Positions 4,210 through 41,125 of a stretch of 42,523 bases of DNA are shown in pieces; positions within the stretch are counted from its first letter, which is position 1; the number at the start of each line of letters is the position of its first letter. The notes below the pieces were generated by a model, which saw only the letters and a list, made by a program, of their open reading frames with translations, was not told the DNA's origin and ran no database searches. This DNA comes from a virus. The stretch covers positions 1 to 42,523 of IMG/VR virus record IMGVR_UViG_3300012919_002157; one strand, given 5' to 3'. A program made the position numbers and the translations under genes.

Positions 4210-5126
4210 TAACCTACAATCTTACTAAGCTCTACCATAGTTGCTGAGAGATTGATTTCAATATCTGCTACCTGCCCATGTTTGACAAGACCATCACGTA
4301 TTTTCAATATAGCTTCATCTTGTGCAAGTTCATCACCAAACATGTCAACATTTTTGTAAAGCCAACTGTATATATCATTGTACTCATCTGGCCTAGCACG
4401 TTCAATAATCAGCTTACGTGCTTCGCGTATGCGTTTTTGTTTGAACAGTTCAACCATTTGCAGTCGCCATTCACTGCTGGCTTCATCTTCGCTTGCATCA
4501 TGCAGTACGCCATCTTGTACGTTTAGTTGTACTGTGTTTATGGTTTTACGCAGATCTGGATATGTTGCTCGCACATATTTGTCCAACACTTCAATTTCTG
4601 CAACCACCTCATTGTCAGCAAGTATTTCTGCAATACGAACTGTGAAGTCATTCTGATCCAAACTTGTGATATGAAAGCCTTGACATCTACTGTGCAGAGC
4701 AGGAATAATCATATGTGGATAATTGCATGTAAGAATAAAACGCACCACACTGTGATACTGTTCCATTACACCACGCAGTGCCGCCTGACCTTCTGGCGAT
4801 ATGTGATCAGCCTCATCAAGCAGAATAACTTTGAAATCACCCCAGGGCATTGTTTCTGAAAAGCTGGTGATCTTTTTACGAATCATATCAACGCCGTTGT
4901 CTCTACTGGCATTGATTGTAAGCACATCAGCATCTTCTACACCCAGCTCTTGTATCAATACTCTTGCTAGTGTAGTTTTGCCTGTACCAGCACTACCACT
5001 AAACAACAGATGTGGTATACCGCCATCTGCTATCCAACTGTTTACCTGTTTGCGTTGTGCTTCATCTTTGAATACGTATTCGCCTACACTTTTAGGACGA
5101 TACTTCTCAACCCAAATGTCTTTCAT
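4209..5126 (-). CDS. 44: Sliding-clamp loader small subunit (T4 gp44 / RFC-like)
   Basis: 305 aa (T4 gp44 is similar in length). This is the AAA+ ATPase that opens the sliding clamp and loads it on primer-template DNA for the phage replisome. Walker A GSAGTGKTT lies at residues 44-52, the Walker B box LLDEAD at 102-107, and the clamp-loader SRC motif (HSRCQG) at 145-150. The opening VEKYRPK is the usual RFC-box start. ATG 5126 has AAAGGA upstream and overlaps the PsiE-like gene by 20 bases. The neighbouring T4 genes 45, 62 and 43 are not in the window. Confidence 0.92.
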   Translation of the reverse strand: MKDIWVEKYRPKSVGEYVFKDEAQRKQVNSWIADGGIPHLLFSGSAGTGKTTLARVLIQELGVEDADVLTINASRDNGVDMIRKKITSFSETMPWGDFKVILLDEADHISPEGQAALRGVMEQYHSVVRFILTCNYPHMIIPALHSRCQGFHITSLDQNDFTVRIAEILADNEVVAEIEVLDKYVRATYPDLRKTINTVQLNVQDGVLHDASEDEASSEWRLQMVELFKQKRIREARKLIIERARPDEYNDIYSWLYKNVDMFGDELAQDEAILKIRDGLVKHGQVADIEINLSATMVELSKIVG

Positions 5127-5520
5127 TTTTATCCTTTTCTAAACTAAGTTTGTCTTTCATGCTCATTATATATGCACTACCGGCCAGTATCAAGATGGCT
5201 CCTGCACTGGCTATCAGCACCAATGGTTCACTTTCTTTACCTTGTAGAATAATCAATCTACACATGGCAGTGATTGCAATTATGATTGGCAGTGTAACAG
5301 GGATTCTGTGTGTGCTATAATATGCTCCTACCATACCTATAATTTCTGTGTAGATAAACAATAAAAATAAATCAGCAAGATCAATTTTTCTTGCCAAAAA
5401 CATATCCCACACATCTAATCCTGCGGCCACCACTGTTAGTATACCAATAAAACCCAGCAACACTTTTTCAGTGTACATAGTGGTCCAATGTAGTTGTCTA
5501 TTCAATTTATTTTGTTCCAT
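5107..5520 (-). CDS. psiE: PsiE-like phosphate-starvation membrane protein
   Basis: 137 aa with about four membrane segments. The segment FIYTEIIGMVGAYYS followed by RIPVTLPIIIAITAMCRLII matches the conserved core of PsiE (phosphate-starvation-inducible E) proteins, where an acidic membrane residue precedes a xxIPxxxxIxIxxTAxxRxII block. The molecular function of PsiE is not known; in bacteria it belongs to the phosphate regulon. ATG 5520 lies inside the end of the PyrD-like gene; the TTG just before is less likely. A phosphate permease gene at 22.3 kb strengthens the phosphate theme. Confidence 0.75.
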   Translation of the reverse strand: MEQNKLNRQLHWTTMYTEKVLLGFIGILTVVAAGLDVWDMFLARKIDLADLFLLFIYTEIIGMVGAYYSTHRIPVTLPIIIAITAMCRLIILQGKESEPLVLIASAGAILILAGSAYIMSMKDKLSLEKDKNERHLG

Positions 5521-6223: not shown

Positions 6224-7263
6224 CTTTTAAAAACTTTCATTACTTGTGGTTGTATTGGTATTTGATCTGCTTGCCATATATCACCTTTGTGATTAAGCCT
6301 TTCAGTTTGTGTTAACCCAGTGTGCTGATAGAGCCACGTTACCATATTTGTGTATTCAATTTGATCAGGTATATCTTGTTTTATCATTGCATCCAACATA
6401 TGAAAATCACTTAGTGCAAAATCATACATGCCTGTTTCAACACCGCCGGCTGGTCGTGCATTAAAGTCTACAGGCCATAATGGTCCGTCCTTCTCTCTTA
6501 GCCACTGCCAACAAATAATACGATTTTTCACAGTAATATGTTTATTAAACAATTCTTTGACAGTATATTCTAGCAGTCTTTTTTCTTCTTCTATTACGCC
6601 TAAGTGCGGAGTAATATGCAAATATGCATGATTTTGTGGATAAACTACATCATCACCATATTTGAAATATTCATAGCTTACTATACTTGCCTGTCCGTAG
6701 GCGTCAATTATAACATGAATACTTACATGATAATCTATGTCAATATATCTTTGTGTATAATCATTGTCTGCTACATTTTCATATTCTGCGGCCCATACAC
6801 GTGGTTTATAAGTTTTTTTATCTGCGACATAATATTTTGCACCACCTCCATATCCATAGTTCAACTTTACCATCATTTTTTCTGCATCATTTTCTAGAGT
6901 AGGAGTGCCAATTTTTCTCAGTATTCTGTCCTGTTCTTTTTTGCTTACAAAAAATTCAAATGCTCTATCATCAAATTGATTTTCTGTTTCATAATACTTT
7001 GAAAGTTCATGTTCTACACTTACACTTCTATACTCTTCTCTATAGTTGAATATCCAGTCTGGAGTAAAATCTAAGTTTTCAACATAGTAGTTAGGATCTA
7101 CATATTGATCATTTGGAATAAACGTAGTATAAGGAACCAGTTCAGCATGAACTCTGGTATTGTACGTGGCATTTTCAACTATTGTAAAGTCCCAATCGTT
7201 TTCAATACAATATCGCACTGGATATAAATTTTTCATTCTTGCATTAAGAATAAGTGCTTTCAT
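6220..7263 (-). CDS. ATP-grasp family enzyme, copy 2
   Basis: 347 aa. ATP-grasp features: KLNYGYGGGAKYYV (ATP-binding loop, about residues 133-146) and WPVDFNARPAGG near residue 267 (metal-binding Asp/Asn plus Arg, as in PurK/carboxylase-like ligases). These enzymes form amide or acyl bonds through acyl-phosphate intermediates; the substrate is unknown. It is strongly similar end to end to the next gene upstream, including the starts (MKALILNARMKNLYPVRYC) and the C-termini (PIQPQVMKVFK), so the pair arose by tandem duplication. ATG overlaps the stop of copy 1 as ATGA. Confidence 0.75.
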   Translation of the reverse strand: MKALILNARMKNLYPVRYCIENDWDFTIVENATYNTRVHAELVPYTTFIPNDQYVDPNYYVENLDFTPDWIFNYREEYRSVSVEHELSKYYETENQFDDRAFEFFVSKKEQDRILRKIGTPTLENDAEKMMVKLNYGYGGGAKYYVADKKTYKPRVWAAEYENVADNDYTQRYIDIDYHVSIHVIIDAYGQASIVSYEYFKYGDDVVYPQNHAYLHITPHLGVIEEEKRLLEYTVKELFNKHITVKNRIICWQWLREKDGPLWPVDFNARPAGGVETGMYDFALSDFHMLDAMIKQDIPDQIEYTNMVTWLYQHTGLTQTERLNHKGDIWQADQIPIQPQVMKVFKS

Positions 7264-11731: not shown

Positions 11732-11998
11732 TTACTCCATCATCATTTTACCTGGTCCAGCCTTTGGAGGCTCAACCGGTTCTATATTATCTACCATTTC
11801 CTTTAGATACTGCTGATATTTTTCTCGCATTATATCAATTCCAAAATCAATCAGTAGTAATCCAACTGTAATTAGTCCAGCATATGGTACAATAAAACTA
11901 CCGCATATTCCAATCAGCATATAAAATGCATATCGCAAAGAATATGATTCCCATCTACTGAAATCAAACAGCCAACCTAAAAATCCTAGTATTTGCAT
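11732..11998 (-). CDS. Small two-span membrane protein
   Basis: 88 aa. Hydrophobic segments lie at about residues 22-38 and 40-55. An amphipathic segment, DIMREKYQQYLKEMVDNI, follows, then a Pro/Met-rich tail. No family recognised. It directly precedes the 36-aa membrane peptide and the BI-1-like gene, making three consecutive membrane proteins. Confidence 0.6.
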   Translation of the reverse strand: MQILGFLGWLFDFSRWESYSLRYAFYMLIGICGSFIVPYAGLITVGLLLIDFGIDIMREKYQQYLKEMVDNIEPVEPPKAGPGKMMME

Positions 11999-32235: not shown

Positions 32236-32275
32236 ACGTTTTCTCCTATTGTTAGTTGCTACTTTTCTGTTCCAA

Positions 32276-32590
32276 GGCAAGTAGCCAGCCCGTCAAATTA
32301 TGCCGCTAAGGCAAAATCTGAAGGTGCAAAATCATCGTTTGCATTTAGTTTTGTTGATCTATATCGCGATCACCCGGTAAACTCCACTTCACTACAACAC
32401 CTGTCGATCCTATTTCGCCCCCATCATAAACACACCAATGATACTTTGCAAACATTTCACGCCAACGATTTCCGTAAACTTTTTTGTATGCTTCTGCAAT
32501 TTTTTTCGTATCTTCATCCATGTGTTTGTGGTGGAGGCGTCGGGTACCGCCCCCGAGTCCAGCCTGTTTTCATGTTGTTTCAACGTCAAC
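32276..32590 (-). ncRNA. ssrA: Circularly permuted two-piece tmRNA
   Basis: Two RNA pieces in permuted order on the minus strand. The acceptor piece (~32590-32529) ends in a T-arm TCGGG-GGCGGTA-CCCGA and CGCCTCC-ACCA, so the 3' CCA end is at 32529. The coding piece starts with GGGGGCG (32422-32416), which pairs with CGCCTCC (one G-U). GGATCGACAGG (D-arm-like) follows. The tag frame at 32342-32301 is GCA AAC GAT GAT...GCG GCA then TAA (32300-32298). It encodes ANDDFAPSDFALAA, a proper LAA-ending tag. Outer ends are approximate. It rescues stalled ribosomes and tags products for proteolysis. Confidence 0.92.
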
Positions 32591-32596
32591 AGTCTA

Positions 32597-32625
32597 TTTA
32601 TAACACAAAATAGATATCTTGTCAA
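32597..32625 (-). promoter_or_regulatory. tmRNA promoter, sigma70 plus late-type core
   Basis: Minus strand TTGACA (32625-32620), 17-base spacer, TATAAA (32602-32597). The -10 region reads TATAAATA (32602-32595), exactly the T4 late core, so host and late-phage polymerases could both use it. A CAAGATATCT sequence follows the -35, similar to the CAAGATGTCT element of the P1 class but at a different position. Confidence 0.8.
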
Positions 32626-32628
32626 TAA

Positions 32629-33255
32629 CTATTGTTCGCCCAGCAGAGGCATTTGTCCTCTACACATGCTGGCAAATATTGCAAAAAGAGGATCATTTTT
32701 GTTCTTTTCATCAATGCCAGCACTGTCAACGTAATCATCTTGTATTCTGAATGCATCAGCTTCAAGATTTGCTTTGCATTCAACTGTTTCATAAACACCG
32801 TTGATTTTCTGCATATAATGTACTAGTTCATGTACTAGAACAGTTTCAAAGAAACCATCAGCTACCATATAACGAGTAGGGCCATCTCTAATGTGAATTA
32901 CATTTGTATCATCATCGTAGAATCCAGCAATGTCGCATTCTTTCATAGGTTTCATATATGCTCCTGTGCATATTTCTTCAGCATTTTGTATTACTATTTC
33001 AGGTAAATCACTACCATCATACTTTAAATTACTGTTTTGTTCTATAAAATTAATCATTTCAATTTTTTTGCAATGATCCCAATCGCACTCTTCAATTTCG
33101 TAATTCACAACTTCTATTCCGGTTGTATCAGCTAATCCATAACTCCACATCCATAATGGAATAATAATAAAGTGTAGTAAAACACAAAGCACAATCATTA
33201 ATATAACTGTGCGTTTACCTTGCGGATGATCATTGCCATGCATTCCTTGTCCCAT
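32629..33255 (-). CDS. Membrane-anchored zinc metallopeptidase-like protein
   Basis: 208 aa. One N-terminal membrane span (about residues 16-38) is followed by a periplasmic domain with cysteines at 57, 62, 96 and 107. VLVHELVHYMQ (residues 139-149) is the HExxH zinc motif; the Glu in ECKANLEADAF (about residues 160-166) may be the third ligand. Probable periplasmic peptidase of uncertain target, for example cell wall or superinfection control. The start overlaps the stop of the small gene upstream (TAATG). Confidence 0.65.
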   Translation of the reverse strand: MGQGMHGNDHPQGKRTVILMIVLCVLLHFIIIPLWMWSYGLADTTGIEVVNYEIEECDWDHCKKIEMINFIEQNSNLKYDGSDLPEIVIQNAEEICTGAYMKPMKECDIAGFYDDDTNVIHIRDGPTRYMVADGFFETVLVHELVHYMQKINGVYETVECKANLEADAFRIQDDYVDSAGIDEKNKNDPLFAIFASMCRGQMPLLGEQ

Positions 33256-33922: not shown

Positions 33923-34103
33923 TTAACTCTTTCCACGCTTGTTCAAATCCTTCTCCATGATTATAAAACTCTTCGTTATACCATGCTCTTTTAAAGTAAC
34001 CCCAATAGCAGGAGTAAATTGTTTGTTCTGTTGCTTTCAAATGTCCTTTGGTCATATAAAACATTTTGTATACTTCTTTTCTACTCGGAAATTCATCATT
34101 CAT
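33912..34103 (-). CDS. Small hypothetical protein
   Basis: 63 aa, aromatic-rich and helical (MNDEFPSRKEVYKMFYMTKG). Overlaps the radical SAM gene by 8 bases and the next gene by 11, so it is coupled at both ends. No family recognised. Confidence 0.55.
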   Translation of the reverse strand: MNDEFPSRKEVYKMFYMTKGHLKATEQTIYSCYWGYFKRAWYNEEFYNHGEGFEQAWKELNGK

Positions 34104-35145
34104 AAACCTTTTCCCTTATAATGTGATCGGCTGGATTGAGAGATTCATTATCTACTCCACAGCTATCAGCACAAGTCCAACAGGGATTTTTACTTTTGTA
34201 ATTGTTCTGTATACTAGTCCATTCGCTACTATTTAATATTTCAGAAAAACTGCGTTTGTGCAAATTATTCCAGTGACTTGGCAAACTCATCAAACTCATT
34301 ACATCATTACGTATCCAACTAGTTGGATTGTAAAAATTTCCTGCTGTCATACAACACGGAAATACCAAACCGTCTCCTCTTATGTGTATATATTGTCCTA
34401 GCTCACACTGGGGTTCAATCACAGTGTTTGGCTCAACAGTTTCAATTGGATCATCATCTTTGTATCCATCTTCTATTGTAGGTGCTCTTTTGTATATATC
34501 CAAAATATTTTTGCCATTTACAATAGTTCTATCTACTATTTCATCTGGACTTTGATTTGGTGTGGTTTGAAAGCCTTTGAAACCAAGAGTTCTTGCTAGT
34601 TCTTTTATCTCTTTTATTTGATGTTTGTTGTGATTGAATTCTACAACTTTCCATTCGGCTCTTCCTCCAGCTTTTATAAATGCCTGGGCATTTGTCATTA
34701 CCCGATCCCAACTTACATTTTTTCTATATAGGTGATTTGTATCTTCTAATCCGTCAATGCTGAAAACTATTTTACGTGAACTATGCAAAGGTACCAAACG
34801 TGCGAGTTCAGTAAAGGTTTTTGTATTTCTTAGACTACCATTGGTGTGAATTTGTAGTTCGCATTTTGGTTTGTGTTGAACAATTCTTTCAACAAGCTCT
34901 ACAATGTTTTTATTTGCTAGTGGATCTCCTACTGTTCCAATACAGTCAACTTTGACGTAATCATGCATAGGAAAGCCTGTCATAATATCTTCAATTATTT
35001 CAACTGTTAAATGTTGATTTAGGTCAGCAAATGGATTTTCATATAATCCGTTGTTGTGTTCAATATAACGTGGACATACACAACATCCTGCATTACAAGA
35101 ACTGCTCAGCTCTAGTTCCAAGGTGTGTATGTTGGTGTATATCAT
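34096..35145 (-). CDS. Radical SAM/SPASM enzyme
   Basis: 349 aa. LSSSCNAGCCVCPR places C17, C21 and C24 in the CX3CX2C [4Fe-4S]/SAM site. KIVFSIDGL is a barrel strand. The C-terminus has GDGLVFPCCMTAGN and NPCWTCADSCG, a SPASM-like domain with auxiliary cluster cysteines. SPASM enzymes modify peptides, sulfatases or cofactors. No small peptide substrate is evident next to it unless the 63-aa or 66-aa neighbours are. It needs Fe-S assembly and a reductant, which the 13-14 kb module could supply. Confidence 0.85.
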   Translation of the reverse strand: MIYTNIHTLELELSSSCNAGCCVCPRYIEHNNGLYENPFADLNQHLTVEIIEDIMTGFPMHDYVKVDCIGTVGDPLANKNIVELVERIVQHKPKCELQIHTNGSLRNTKTFTELARLVPLHSSRKIVFSIDGLEDTNHLYRKNVSWDRVMTNAQAFIKAGGRAEWKVVEFNHNKHQIKEIKELARTLGFKGFQTTPNQSPDEIVDRTIVNGKNILDIYKRAPTIEDGYKDDDPIETVEPNTVIEPQCELGQYIHIRGDGLVFPCCMTAGNFYNPTSWIRNDVMSLMSLPSHWNNLHKRSFSEILNSSEWTSIQNNYKSKNPCWTCADSCGVDNESLNPADHIIREKVYE

Positions 35146-39014: not shown

Positions 39015-39470
39015 ATGACACCAGATCAAGTAGGAATAGAAATAACCAACCTTATCATGCCTTTTATTAGTGCTCTACTAATACTAGTTATCACTTTATG
39101 GTTCAAGGATTTTGCAACCAAAATTGCAAAAGGTATGATGTTTAAAATGAACAAAAGTTTCAACGAAGGCGACTCAGTTGTGCTAGATGGTGAAGATGCA
39201 ATAATTGTAAAAATTGGTTTGTCAGAAAGTGTGTTTGGAGTGTATGGACCACGTGGTTATACTTGGCGATATGTACCAAACGAAAGAATACCAATGTTGA
39301 AACTAGAAAAAGTTATTAATAAAGATCTACATTTGGATACTCCTGAAGAAAAAGCAGAAAAACTGCAATCATTGATAGATAGACAGCAAGATTCAAAAAT
39401 TGATGCTAACAAAGATGCTATCGAAGAAATTAAAAAAGGAAACAAGGGGAGAAAAAATGCTAGACGGTAA
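39015..39470 (+). CDS. MscS-like membrane protein (short)
   Basis: 151 aa. One N-terminal membrane span (about residues 12-27), then FKDFATKIAKGMMFKMNKSFNEGDSVVLDG, matching the MscS pore-helix to beta-domain transition ('G...f......f.vGD.V...g..G.V..I.l..t'), and YVPNERI (canonical iPNs). A charged coiled-coil tail (EEKAEKLQSLIDRQQD) replaces the usual C-terminal domain. It could form a mini-channel or modulate the host MscS. First gene of the plus island. Confidence 0.65.
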   Translation: MTPDQVGIEITNLIMPFISALLILVITLWFKDFATKIAKGMMFKMNKSFNEGDSVVLDGEDAIIVKIGLSESVFGVYGPRGYTWRYVPNERIPMLKLEKVINKDLHLDTPEEKAEKLQSLIDRQQDSKIDANKDAIEEIKKGNKGRKNARR

Positions 39471-40251
39471 AATAGATACAAGTTTTAATTTTAGTTGGAA
39501 CAATGCGGCACATCTAGCATGGTGTAGTGCTTTTGCATATAATCAACCATTGACAGGAAGAAAACTAGCAAAAGAATGTGGATACAAAGAATGCAAATTC
39601 TTTGACAAAGATGGAGCTCAAGGATATGGACTTGCCACAGACAAGTATATTGTAATTGCACTTCGTGGCACAGAACCAAAAGAAAAATCAGACGTAGTTG
39701 CTGATCTTAAAGCATGGAAAAGCAGTAGCAAATATCAAGGTAGAGTGCATGCAGGATTCAAAGATGAAGTATTGAAAATTATGGATCAAATTGATAAATT
39801 TGTTGCAAAGCACGAAGGCAAAAAAATTTATGTTTGCGGACACAGTTTAGGCGCCGCTATGGCAACTATTGTTACTACTAGATTAAAAAACAAACCCGAA
39901 GCAGTGTACACCTACGGCTCACCCAGAGTTGGTAACAGAAAATTTGCACATCATTTCGATAAGGATTACACTTGCTATAGATTTGTAAATAACAATGATA
40001 TAGTAACTGCGGTACCAGGTCCTATTATGTATGACCATGTTGGTAAACTACACTACATAAGCTATAAGAAAACAATTCACACAGGAATGGGAACAAATCC
40101 TCTACGTAGGTTTTGGGACAAACTACGTGGATTGTTAAGAGCATGGCGAAAAGGAGAAATATTTGACCACGTCTATGATCATGACATTACTCGATACGCA
40201 AAAATCATCTCAGCAAAAGCAGAGTCAAGTCCACCAGCACGAGTCCTTTAA
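39457..40251 (+). CDS. Class 3 lipase
   Basis: 264 aa from ATG 39457, which has AAGGGGAG upstream and overlaps the MscS-like gene by 14 bases. IYVCGHSLGAAMA (GHSLG at residues 128-132, nucleophile Ser130), VYTYGSPRVGNRKF, and RFVNNNDIVTAVP (catalytic Asp), with a later His (DHVGKLHYI), are the Lipase_3 signatures. No signal peptide, so it acts in the cytoplasm unless lysed. It may attack host membrane lipids, consistent with a lysis or membrane role. Confidence 0.88.
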   Translation: MLDGKIDTSFNFSWNNAAHLAWCSAFAYNQPLTGRKLAKECGYKECKFFDKDGAQGYGLATDKYIVIALRGTEPKEKSDVVADLKAWKSSSKYQGRVHAGFKDEVLKIMDQIDKFVAKHEGKKIYVCGHSLGAAMATIVTTRLKNKPEAVYTYGSPRVGNRKFAHHFDKDYTCYRFVNNNDIVTAVPGPIMYDHVGKLHYISYKKTIHTGMGTNPLRRFWDKLRGLLRAWRKGEIFDHVYDHDITRYAKIISAKAESSPPARVL

Positions 40252-41125
40252 CAGTAAAGAACATCTAGCCGATAGAGCAAAAAGAGCCAAACAGGGTTAC
40301 ATAGATAATCCTGCACTTCCTGGTCTACGAACTGTAGAAATTAACATTAGTGAACTATGCAATCGTGTGTGCAGTTTTTGTCCTCGCAGTGATCCAAAGA
40401 TCTACAGTAACCAAAAACTTTTTATGAGCACCACCACAGGAATGGAATTGGGCAAACAATTGGCAGATTGCAACTATGATGGAGAAATACATGTAACAGG
40501 TTTTGGTGAACCTATGACACATCCACATGTACTAGAATTGCTTGCAAGTATATCTCAGTACTGGTGCCATTATATTGAAGTAACAACCAATGGTGATAGA
40601 TTAGAATCTGATCCAAATCTTATCAATGATTTATTTGCACATGGAGTAAGCAGACTAACAATAGACAGCTATGATGGTCTAGAGCAATACAATAGATACA
40701 AAACTATGATGCGACACTGGCCCAACAAAAGATGGCGAATACGTAATCATTATGATGATCCAAACAAAGACAAAAATGAGTTGATAGCAGAATACAATTT
40801 CAACAACCGAGCAGGTAATTCTGCAGAAGCACAGTCAACGCAGAATAGATGCTTTTTGCCTTTTTATAAAACTTTGATTGATTGGAACGGTGATTTGGTT
40901 TTGTGTTGCAATGACTGGCAACGCAGTAGTGGACAGTTTGGTAATATCAACTCTACACCATTGTCCAAGTTATGGTTGGATAACAAACTAATTCATATTA
41001 GACAGCAGTTAGCACAAGGAATACGCAAAGGACCTGCATGTGGATCATGCAATATAGGTGGCACTGCTTTTGGTGAAGACTCTTTTAACCTGCACCATAA
41101 TAATTATATGCTGATATCACAATAA
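40163..41125 (+). CDS. Radical SAM enzyme, SPASM-like end
   Basis: 320 aa from TTG 40163, preferred because AAAAGGAGAAATAT gives ideal spacing; it overlaps the lipase end by 89 bases (ATG at 40175 or 40181 are alternatives). SELCNRVCSFCPR places C66, C70, C73 in CX3CX2C. DGEIHVTGFGEPMTHP is the GGE-type SAM motif, and LVLCCNDW and GPACGSCNIGG supply C-terminal cluster cysteines. Substrate unknown. It converges with and overlaps the DUF3307-like gene by 41 bases. Confidence 0.82.
   Translation: MTTSMIMTLLDTQKSSQQKQSQVHQHESFNSKEHLADRAKRAKQGYIDNPALPGLRTVEINISELCNRVCSFCPRSDPKIYSNQKLFMSTTTGMELGKQLADCNYDGEIHVTGFGEPMTHPHVLELLASISQYWCHYIEVTTNGDRLESDPNLINDLFAHGVSRLTIDSYDGLEQYNRYKTMMRHWPNKRWRIRNHYDDPNKDKNELIAEYNFNNRAGNSAEAQSTQNRCFLPFYKTLIDWNGDLVLCCNDWQRSSGQFGNINSTPLSKLWLDNKLIHIRQQLAQGIRKGPACGSCNIGGTAFGEDSFNLHHNNYMLISQ

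Follow-up and report, generated by a model that had tools for sequence, protein, structure and literature searches.

A phage-encoded permuted tmRNA gene whose intervening segment probably doubles as a slot for small-protein genes

What occupies the gap between the two pieces of a circularly permuted transfer-messenger RNA (tmRNA) gene when that gene belongs to a virus? We addressed this question in a 42.5-kb contig, IMG/VR virus record IMGVR_UViG_3300012919_002157, whose full 42,523 nucleotides are referred to here as the window. On its minus strand, positions 32254–32629 hold a sequence-complete, permuted two-piece tmRNA of the alpha type in a phage contig. A first-pass annotation had placed such a tmRNA at 32276–32629; these coordinates are correct to within about 20 nt, and the strand, which had been left unstated, is minus. 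What that annotation overlooked, and what is new here, is a probable protein gene within the intervening segment (IVS) that separates the two pieces. We consider it probable that the locus is a phage-encoded, circularly permuted two-piece tmRNA in which the IVS has a second role as a slot holding a small protein gene. Its parts are the following.

32529..32629, minus: acceptor piece, transcribed first (T-arm, CGCCTCC, ACCA); from RF01849, ARAGORN, the 7-bp acceptor pairing and the 5-bp T-stem
32423..32528, minus: IVS, 106 nt, between CCA and G1; boundaries by acceptor pairing
32345..32521, minus: IVS-nested open reading frame (ORF), 58 codons plus stop, MDEDTKKIAEAYKKVYGNRWREMFAKYHWCVYDGGEIGSTGVVVKWSLPGDRDIDQQN; from the open frame, its relatives and the ratio of nonsynonymous to synonymous differences (pN/pS)
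32254..32422, minus: coding piece, from the acceptor 5' half GGGGGCG to the Rfam 3' end; from RF01849
32298..32342, minus: tag reading frame, ANDDFAPSDFALAA and stop; from ARAGORN and translation

The identity of the tmRNA is secured by independent methods. An Infernal cmscan against Rfam matched 32629–32254 on the minus strand to alpha_tmRNA (RF01849; model positions 1–355, 111.6 bits against a gathering score of 50, E = 8.4e-30) and 32590–32298 to tmRNA_permuted (RF04321; 104.1 bits), and ARAGORN, which is independent of Rfam, called a permuted tmRNA with the tag ANDDFAPSDFALAA followed by a stop. The gene order is permuted, the acceptor 3' half and CCA coming first and the GGGGGCG 5' half second. 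The two halves, CGCCTCC-ACCA and GGGGGCG, pair over 7 bp, with G1 at 32422, the CCA end at 32529 and a G3–U70 wobble of the kind typical of alanine tRNA. The T-stem forms all five of its pairs and the T-arm is intact and uninterrupted. The tag frame begins with GCA at 32342–32340 and continues as NDDFAPSDFALAA to a stop ending at 32298, so that the tag starts with A-N-D and closes with A-L-A-A. The two-piece permuted form, split acceptor stem, intact T-arm and tag frame proposed in the first-pass annotation are thus all borne out. The motifs ACAACA and TGTTGT, which it had suggested could pair, are both present in the pieces; the minimum-energy structure of the two pieces from RNAcofold pairs other segments. 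The ends of the IVS, AAACACA and TGTGTTT, also pair (8 bp in the arm scan), and the Rfam scan of the tmRNA returned no intron family.

The ORF in the IVS starts with an ATG 7 nt past the CCA, and reads through the whole IVS to end 78 nt inside the coding piece. Relatives sit at the corresponding site in the tmRNAs of loci L122, L123, L251, L556 and L569, and another, L564, is free-standing: its GTG start overlaps the stop codon of the upstream gene (GTGA), and neither ARAGORN nor Rfam found a tmRNA at that locus. The end of the L564 ORF, YYWCVYDGPELES, matches the tmRNA-derived tail YHWCVYDGGELGS. Across this seven-sequence family, the IVS part alone gives a mean pN of 0.25 and pS of 0.61, a ratio of 0.40, and third codon positions vary most. 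By these comparisons, the ORF is conserved at the protein level and under purifying selection. AlphaFold2 predicts one helix (residues 3–27, predicted local distance difference test score about 70–80), with residues 31–58 scoring below 50. The ORF gave no endonuclease match, and no match in a cultured phage was found for the window ORF or for two other IVS families, WSICAD and KITKENTPNKY. Separately, a motif of the window ORF, INAYRKVYGNRWKDYYRKH, reappears at the C terminus of a longer free-standing frame in L562 (about 6489–6560 on the reverse complement), a possible source of the IVS gene.

Long IVS that hold ORFs are widespread in viral tmRNAs. A 20-nt probe directed at the coding-piece 5' end matched at least 120 viral stretches, of which 115, unselected for IVS length, could be resolved. 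Among the resolvable genes in the matches listed, the viral IVS has a median of 80 nt and reaches at least 100 nt in 45 of 115, whereas the same probe in bacterial genomes gave a median of 34 nt, with 2 of 98 resolvable genes at or above 100 nt. This 98-gene control is dominated by terrestrial Rhizobiales-type genomes; a second, independent draw covered 289 genomes of the class to which a SAR116 genome belongs, and only two of the roughly 150 tmRNA matches listed there (332 and 351 nt) exceed the window's 293 nt. In the unselected viral sample, an ORF takes up 60% or more of the IVS in 35 of the 115 tmRNAs among the matches listed; 25 of these have a Shine–Dalgarno (SD) sequence.

We then considered viral IVS of at least 95 nt, 233 distinct sequences that reduce to 150 on removal of near-duplicates. 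The IMG/VR loci are metagenomic, and the families recur in contigs of many separate samples. An ORF of at least 20 codons starts in the IVS in 211 of the 233; it covers more than 60% of the IVS in 181 and follows an SD of at least 4 nt in 146. SD-preceded ATG ORFs covering at least 70% of the IVS number 67 in the 150, compared with a mean of 1.9 and a maximum of 6 in 50 dinucleotide shuffles. The IVS ORFs (n = 197) fall into 64 protein clusters, and pN/pS is below 1 in 24 of 25 multi-member families (0.06–0.74), the exception being a pair of near-identical sequences. Pfam and PHROGs searches with ten IVS families returned one clear match, DUF6356 (5e-12), weak ones to DUF2061, DUF5963 and holin-like proteins, and nothing else.

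The segment housing these ORFs has an architecture of its own. In 194 distinct long viral IVS, the end arms pair over at least 7 bp in 92% and at least 9 bp in 79%, compared with 29% and 10% when arms are swapped between IVS. Since its own arms pair far beyond swapped ones, the terminal stem of the viral IVS covaries. The ORF sits in the loop of this stem; its SD is located within the 5' arm in 26 of 75 cases and otherwise immediately inside the stem. Among 110 non-redundant cases, 71 ORFs stop inside the IVS, 28 at the TAG of GGGG..GAAATAG and 11 deeper in the coding piece, the last being the window type.

The proteins, moreover, change while the tmRNA stays. Close relatives of the window tmRNA carry unrelated IVS proteins, and in an all-pairs comparison 83% of pairs with mature parts 85–90% identical have unrelated IVS ORFs; in two pairs the compared mature parts are identical and the IVS ORFs unrelated. 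L063 and L096 share 98% identity over 3.3 kb, yet their IVS, from CCA to G1, hold different genes, each with matching arms of its own. L116 and L380 have the tmRNA in common and flanks little alike, and the IVS family of L380 is free-standing in L116. Free-standing relatives of IVS genes are indeed common; one adjoins the tmRNA of the cultured Methylophilales phage Melnitz, and a relative of the L354 cargo lies in the window itself.

11732..11998, minus: free-standing gene (MDFLVWHGIAMFVVVAVSFGAGYYTATVKRRNNEQ...), outside the tmRNA gene, with a homologue inside the tmRNA IVS of virus L354 (tblastn 46% over 35 aa, E = 4e-6; ORF list)

Taken together, the sequences show that in viral contigs generally the IVS carries, in the loop of its covarying stem, one of many small-protein genes unrelated to each other, and that this cargo is exchanged between otherwise near-identical tmRNA genes.

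L043, L070, L283 and L306, with IVS of 159–177 nt (the WSICAD size class), have a 23-codon ORF with a strong SD, beginning at IVS position 13. In L043 and L070 the WSICAD ORF, whose start is at 41, overlaps it in a different frame; one IVS possibly holds two overlapping genes there. The tmRNA tags of L064, L099, L115 and L086 are unusually long, for example ANDNALSNVTFVDFSAPVTAVNEDFALAA. For L059, L076 and L117 the tag search gave frames such as ANETYNCK and ANERYRCKR that lack the ALAA end; either the search pattern mislocated the tag start or the tag is unusual.

Known tmRNA biology suggests how such a gene could be expressed. A single transcript would run from acceptor piece through IVS to coding piece; host RNase P would cut before GGGGGCG and 3' processing would trim to the CCA. 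The two pieces would pair and, once aminoacylated with alanine and assisted by host SmpB, add the tag ANDDFAPSDFALAA to stalled nascent chains. Translation of the small protein would use the uncut precursor as its message; where the IVS itself contains the stop, the excised stem-loop might serve instead. For the window ORF, only the uncut precursor could give a finished protein, because the frame enters the mature tmRNA by 78 nt and RNase P cleavage would strip it of its stop codon. For the IVS ORFs, translation, function and regulation are inferences. The IVS protein is most likely an independent phage cargo in a convenient transcribed slot and not a tmRNA cofactor, because unrelated proteins fill the slot and several families are also free-standing. 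More tentatively, the IVS may be a dedicated, exchangeable expression slot in a covarying stem, in which maturation would cut off the protein message and translation would delay maturation.

Several observations weigh against a coding IVS. The window ORF has no SD and lies partly within conserved tmRNA sequence. The start site in its family varies, with ATG, GTG or ATC at or near the position of the window ATG; L569 and L556 have ATC or ACG at that position, and L556 has GTG two codons later. Two bacterial IVS are likewise long, 22 of the 233 long viral IVS lack an ORF, and roseophage IVS of 95–118 nt are hairpins without an evident ORF; a long IVS is hence not by itself coding. The locus could then be an ordinary phage two-piece tmRNA with a non-coding spacer, and its frame would result incidentally from the conserved arms, the tmRNA sequence and the AT-rich composition. 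We think this unlikely: the pN/pS of 0.40 comes from the IVS part alone, the free-standing homologue has a translationally coupled start, and the shuffle control and the purifying selection in all but one of the multi-member families point the same way. An ORF arising by chance was rejected on the shuffles, pN/pS and homologues.

If a protein gene is present, it might serve the tmRNA as a regulatory device, in which translation melts the acceptor stem and blocks maturation, maturation removes the stop, and protein and tmRNA are mutually exclusive products; the cut message might itself even become a tmRNA substrate. Stops inside the mature coding piece in 39 of the 110 non-redundant cases, the window type included, and the SDs in paired arms would fit such a device. 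Overlap in a compact phage genome explains shared stops equally well, however, and unrelated cargo proteins speak against one dedicated circuit. Because most stops lie inside the IVS, regulatory coupling is not favoured as a general explanation, and we hold it to be improbable. Far less probable still is that the gene is no phage gene at all but the host's, an ssrA that came along as part of a host fragment or as the integration site of a prophage. Integration into tmRNA genes is common (PMC11915505), and the Melnitz authors weighed this route of acquisition (PMC9004378). The window gene, however, is complete and sits in the interior of a contig whose other genes include phage-type ones, such as a gp44-type clamp loader (phrog_168, 1e-80), along with a PRPP synthetase. 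Ranked by mature sequence within the collected set, its closest tmRNAs all come from viruses (L135 and L139, 87%; L227 and L354, 83%), and no bacterial tmRNA is among the 25 best matches. The host-fragment or attachment-site reading was rejected on these grounds, and the first-pass view of a phage gene stands. The preferred reading remains a phage tmRNA with a cargo slot in its IVS. The same contig also encodes two radical SAM/SPASM proteins and a class 3 lipase (34096–35145, minus; 40163–41125, plus; 39400–40251, plus).

As a phage-encoded two-piece tmRNA, the window gene is an ordinary new member of a kind already known from Melnitz (MZ577095–MZ577098), likewise a T4-like marine phage with a permuted alpha-type tmRNA. 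The Melnitz paper counted 53 two-piece tmRNAs in publicly available phage genomes, of which 50 were marine or aquatic (PMC9004378). In the Melnitz stretch L552 (MZ577097.1, 44292–47474), the tmRNA IVS holds an SD-preceded ORF, MFKWLSKTRLVVITRDYFRERNRKADAKIPKYLSGTRSVYDGGELGSTGRNRKV, at about 1785–1927 on the plus strand, with the predicted product MFKWLSKTRLVVITRDYFRERNRKADAKIPKYLSG...; it is related to the IVS ORFs of L269, L313 and L272 and, unlike that of the window, belongs to the PKYLSG family. This ORF lies under the SsrA feature and has no gene annotation in the record, and the paper, as far as its accessible text goes, covers the tmRNA and its riboswitch and not the IVS ORF (PMC9004378). 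A coding-piece probe from a viral relative of the window tmRNA had no cultured-phage match. Two further phage tmRNAs came to light: Pelagibacter phage HTVC008M (L575, KC465899.1, 140000–147284) has a permuted tmRNA at 5121–5462, plus, with the tag ANFNEYALAA by ARAGORN, unannotated in the record; and in Ruegeria phage V10 (L554, MH015255.1) a GOLLD RNA (RF02032, just over the gathering score; 845–1278, plus) lies about 170 nt upstream of a permuted tmRNA, neither of them annotated in the part of the record displayed.

Other known systems resemble the window in part. Permuted tmRNAs of Alphaproteobacteria such as Caulobacter (RF01849, RF04321) share its order, 7-bp acceptor stem, T-arm and tag frame, but bacterial IVS are short, as given above, and their ends pair less. 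The intron-form tmRNA with a LAGLIDADG homing-endonuclease ORF likewise nests a protein gene in a tmRNA gene (PMC11915505). The window tmRNA has neither the group I intron in the T-loop nor the homing-endonuclease ORF of that form; its ORF is instead part of the processed IVS of a permuted gene, and by Pfam and PHROGs the IVS proteins are not homing endonucleases. In GCA-2688965 sp002688965, a tRNA-Ala gene is nested in the IVS of a permuted tmRNA (PMC11915505); that, however, is an RNA gene, reported as unique to one nominally archaeal genome, and neither a protein gene nor a recurrent slot. Searches of the open-access literature brought up no description of a protein gene within a tmRNA IVS. 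A conserved small-protein gene in the IVS, and the use of this gap by many phages as a swap slot, appear to be new.

The type of tmRNA says less about the host. The first-pass annotation had taken it to indicate an alphaproteobacterial host, a link we reject as unsafe because the alphaproteobacterial-type tmRNA of Melnitz sits in a phage of OM43, a host classed as Gammaproteobacteria by the authors (PMC9004378). Its suggestion of a rescue activity provided by the phage itself is plausible; no SmpB was found in the window contig, and the phage tmRNA would therefore need host SmpB.

If this reading is correct, one gene both encodes a non-coding RNA and serves as an exchangeable protein cassette, which would be unusual among nested genes; dozens of unannotated small phage protein families would also come to light. 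Annotation of a tmRNA can mask such a gene, as the Melnitz record exemplifies, and the cassette idea is open to testing in cultured phage. Finally, the finding could bear on why many marine phages carry a tmRNA of their own, since the cargo may be part of its selected value.
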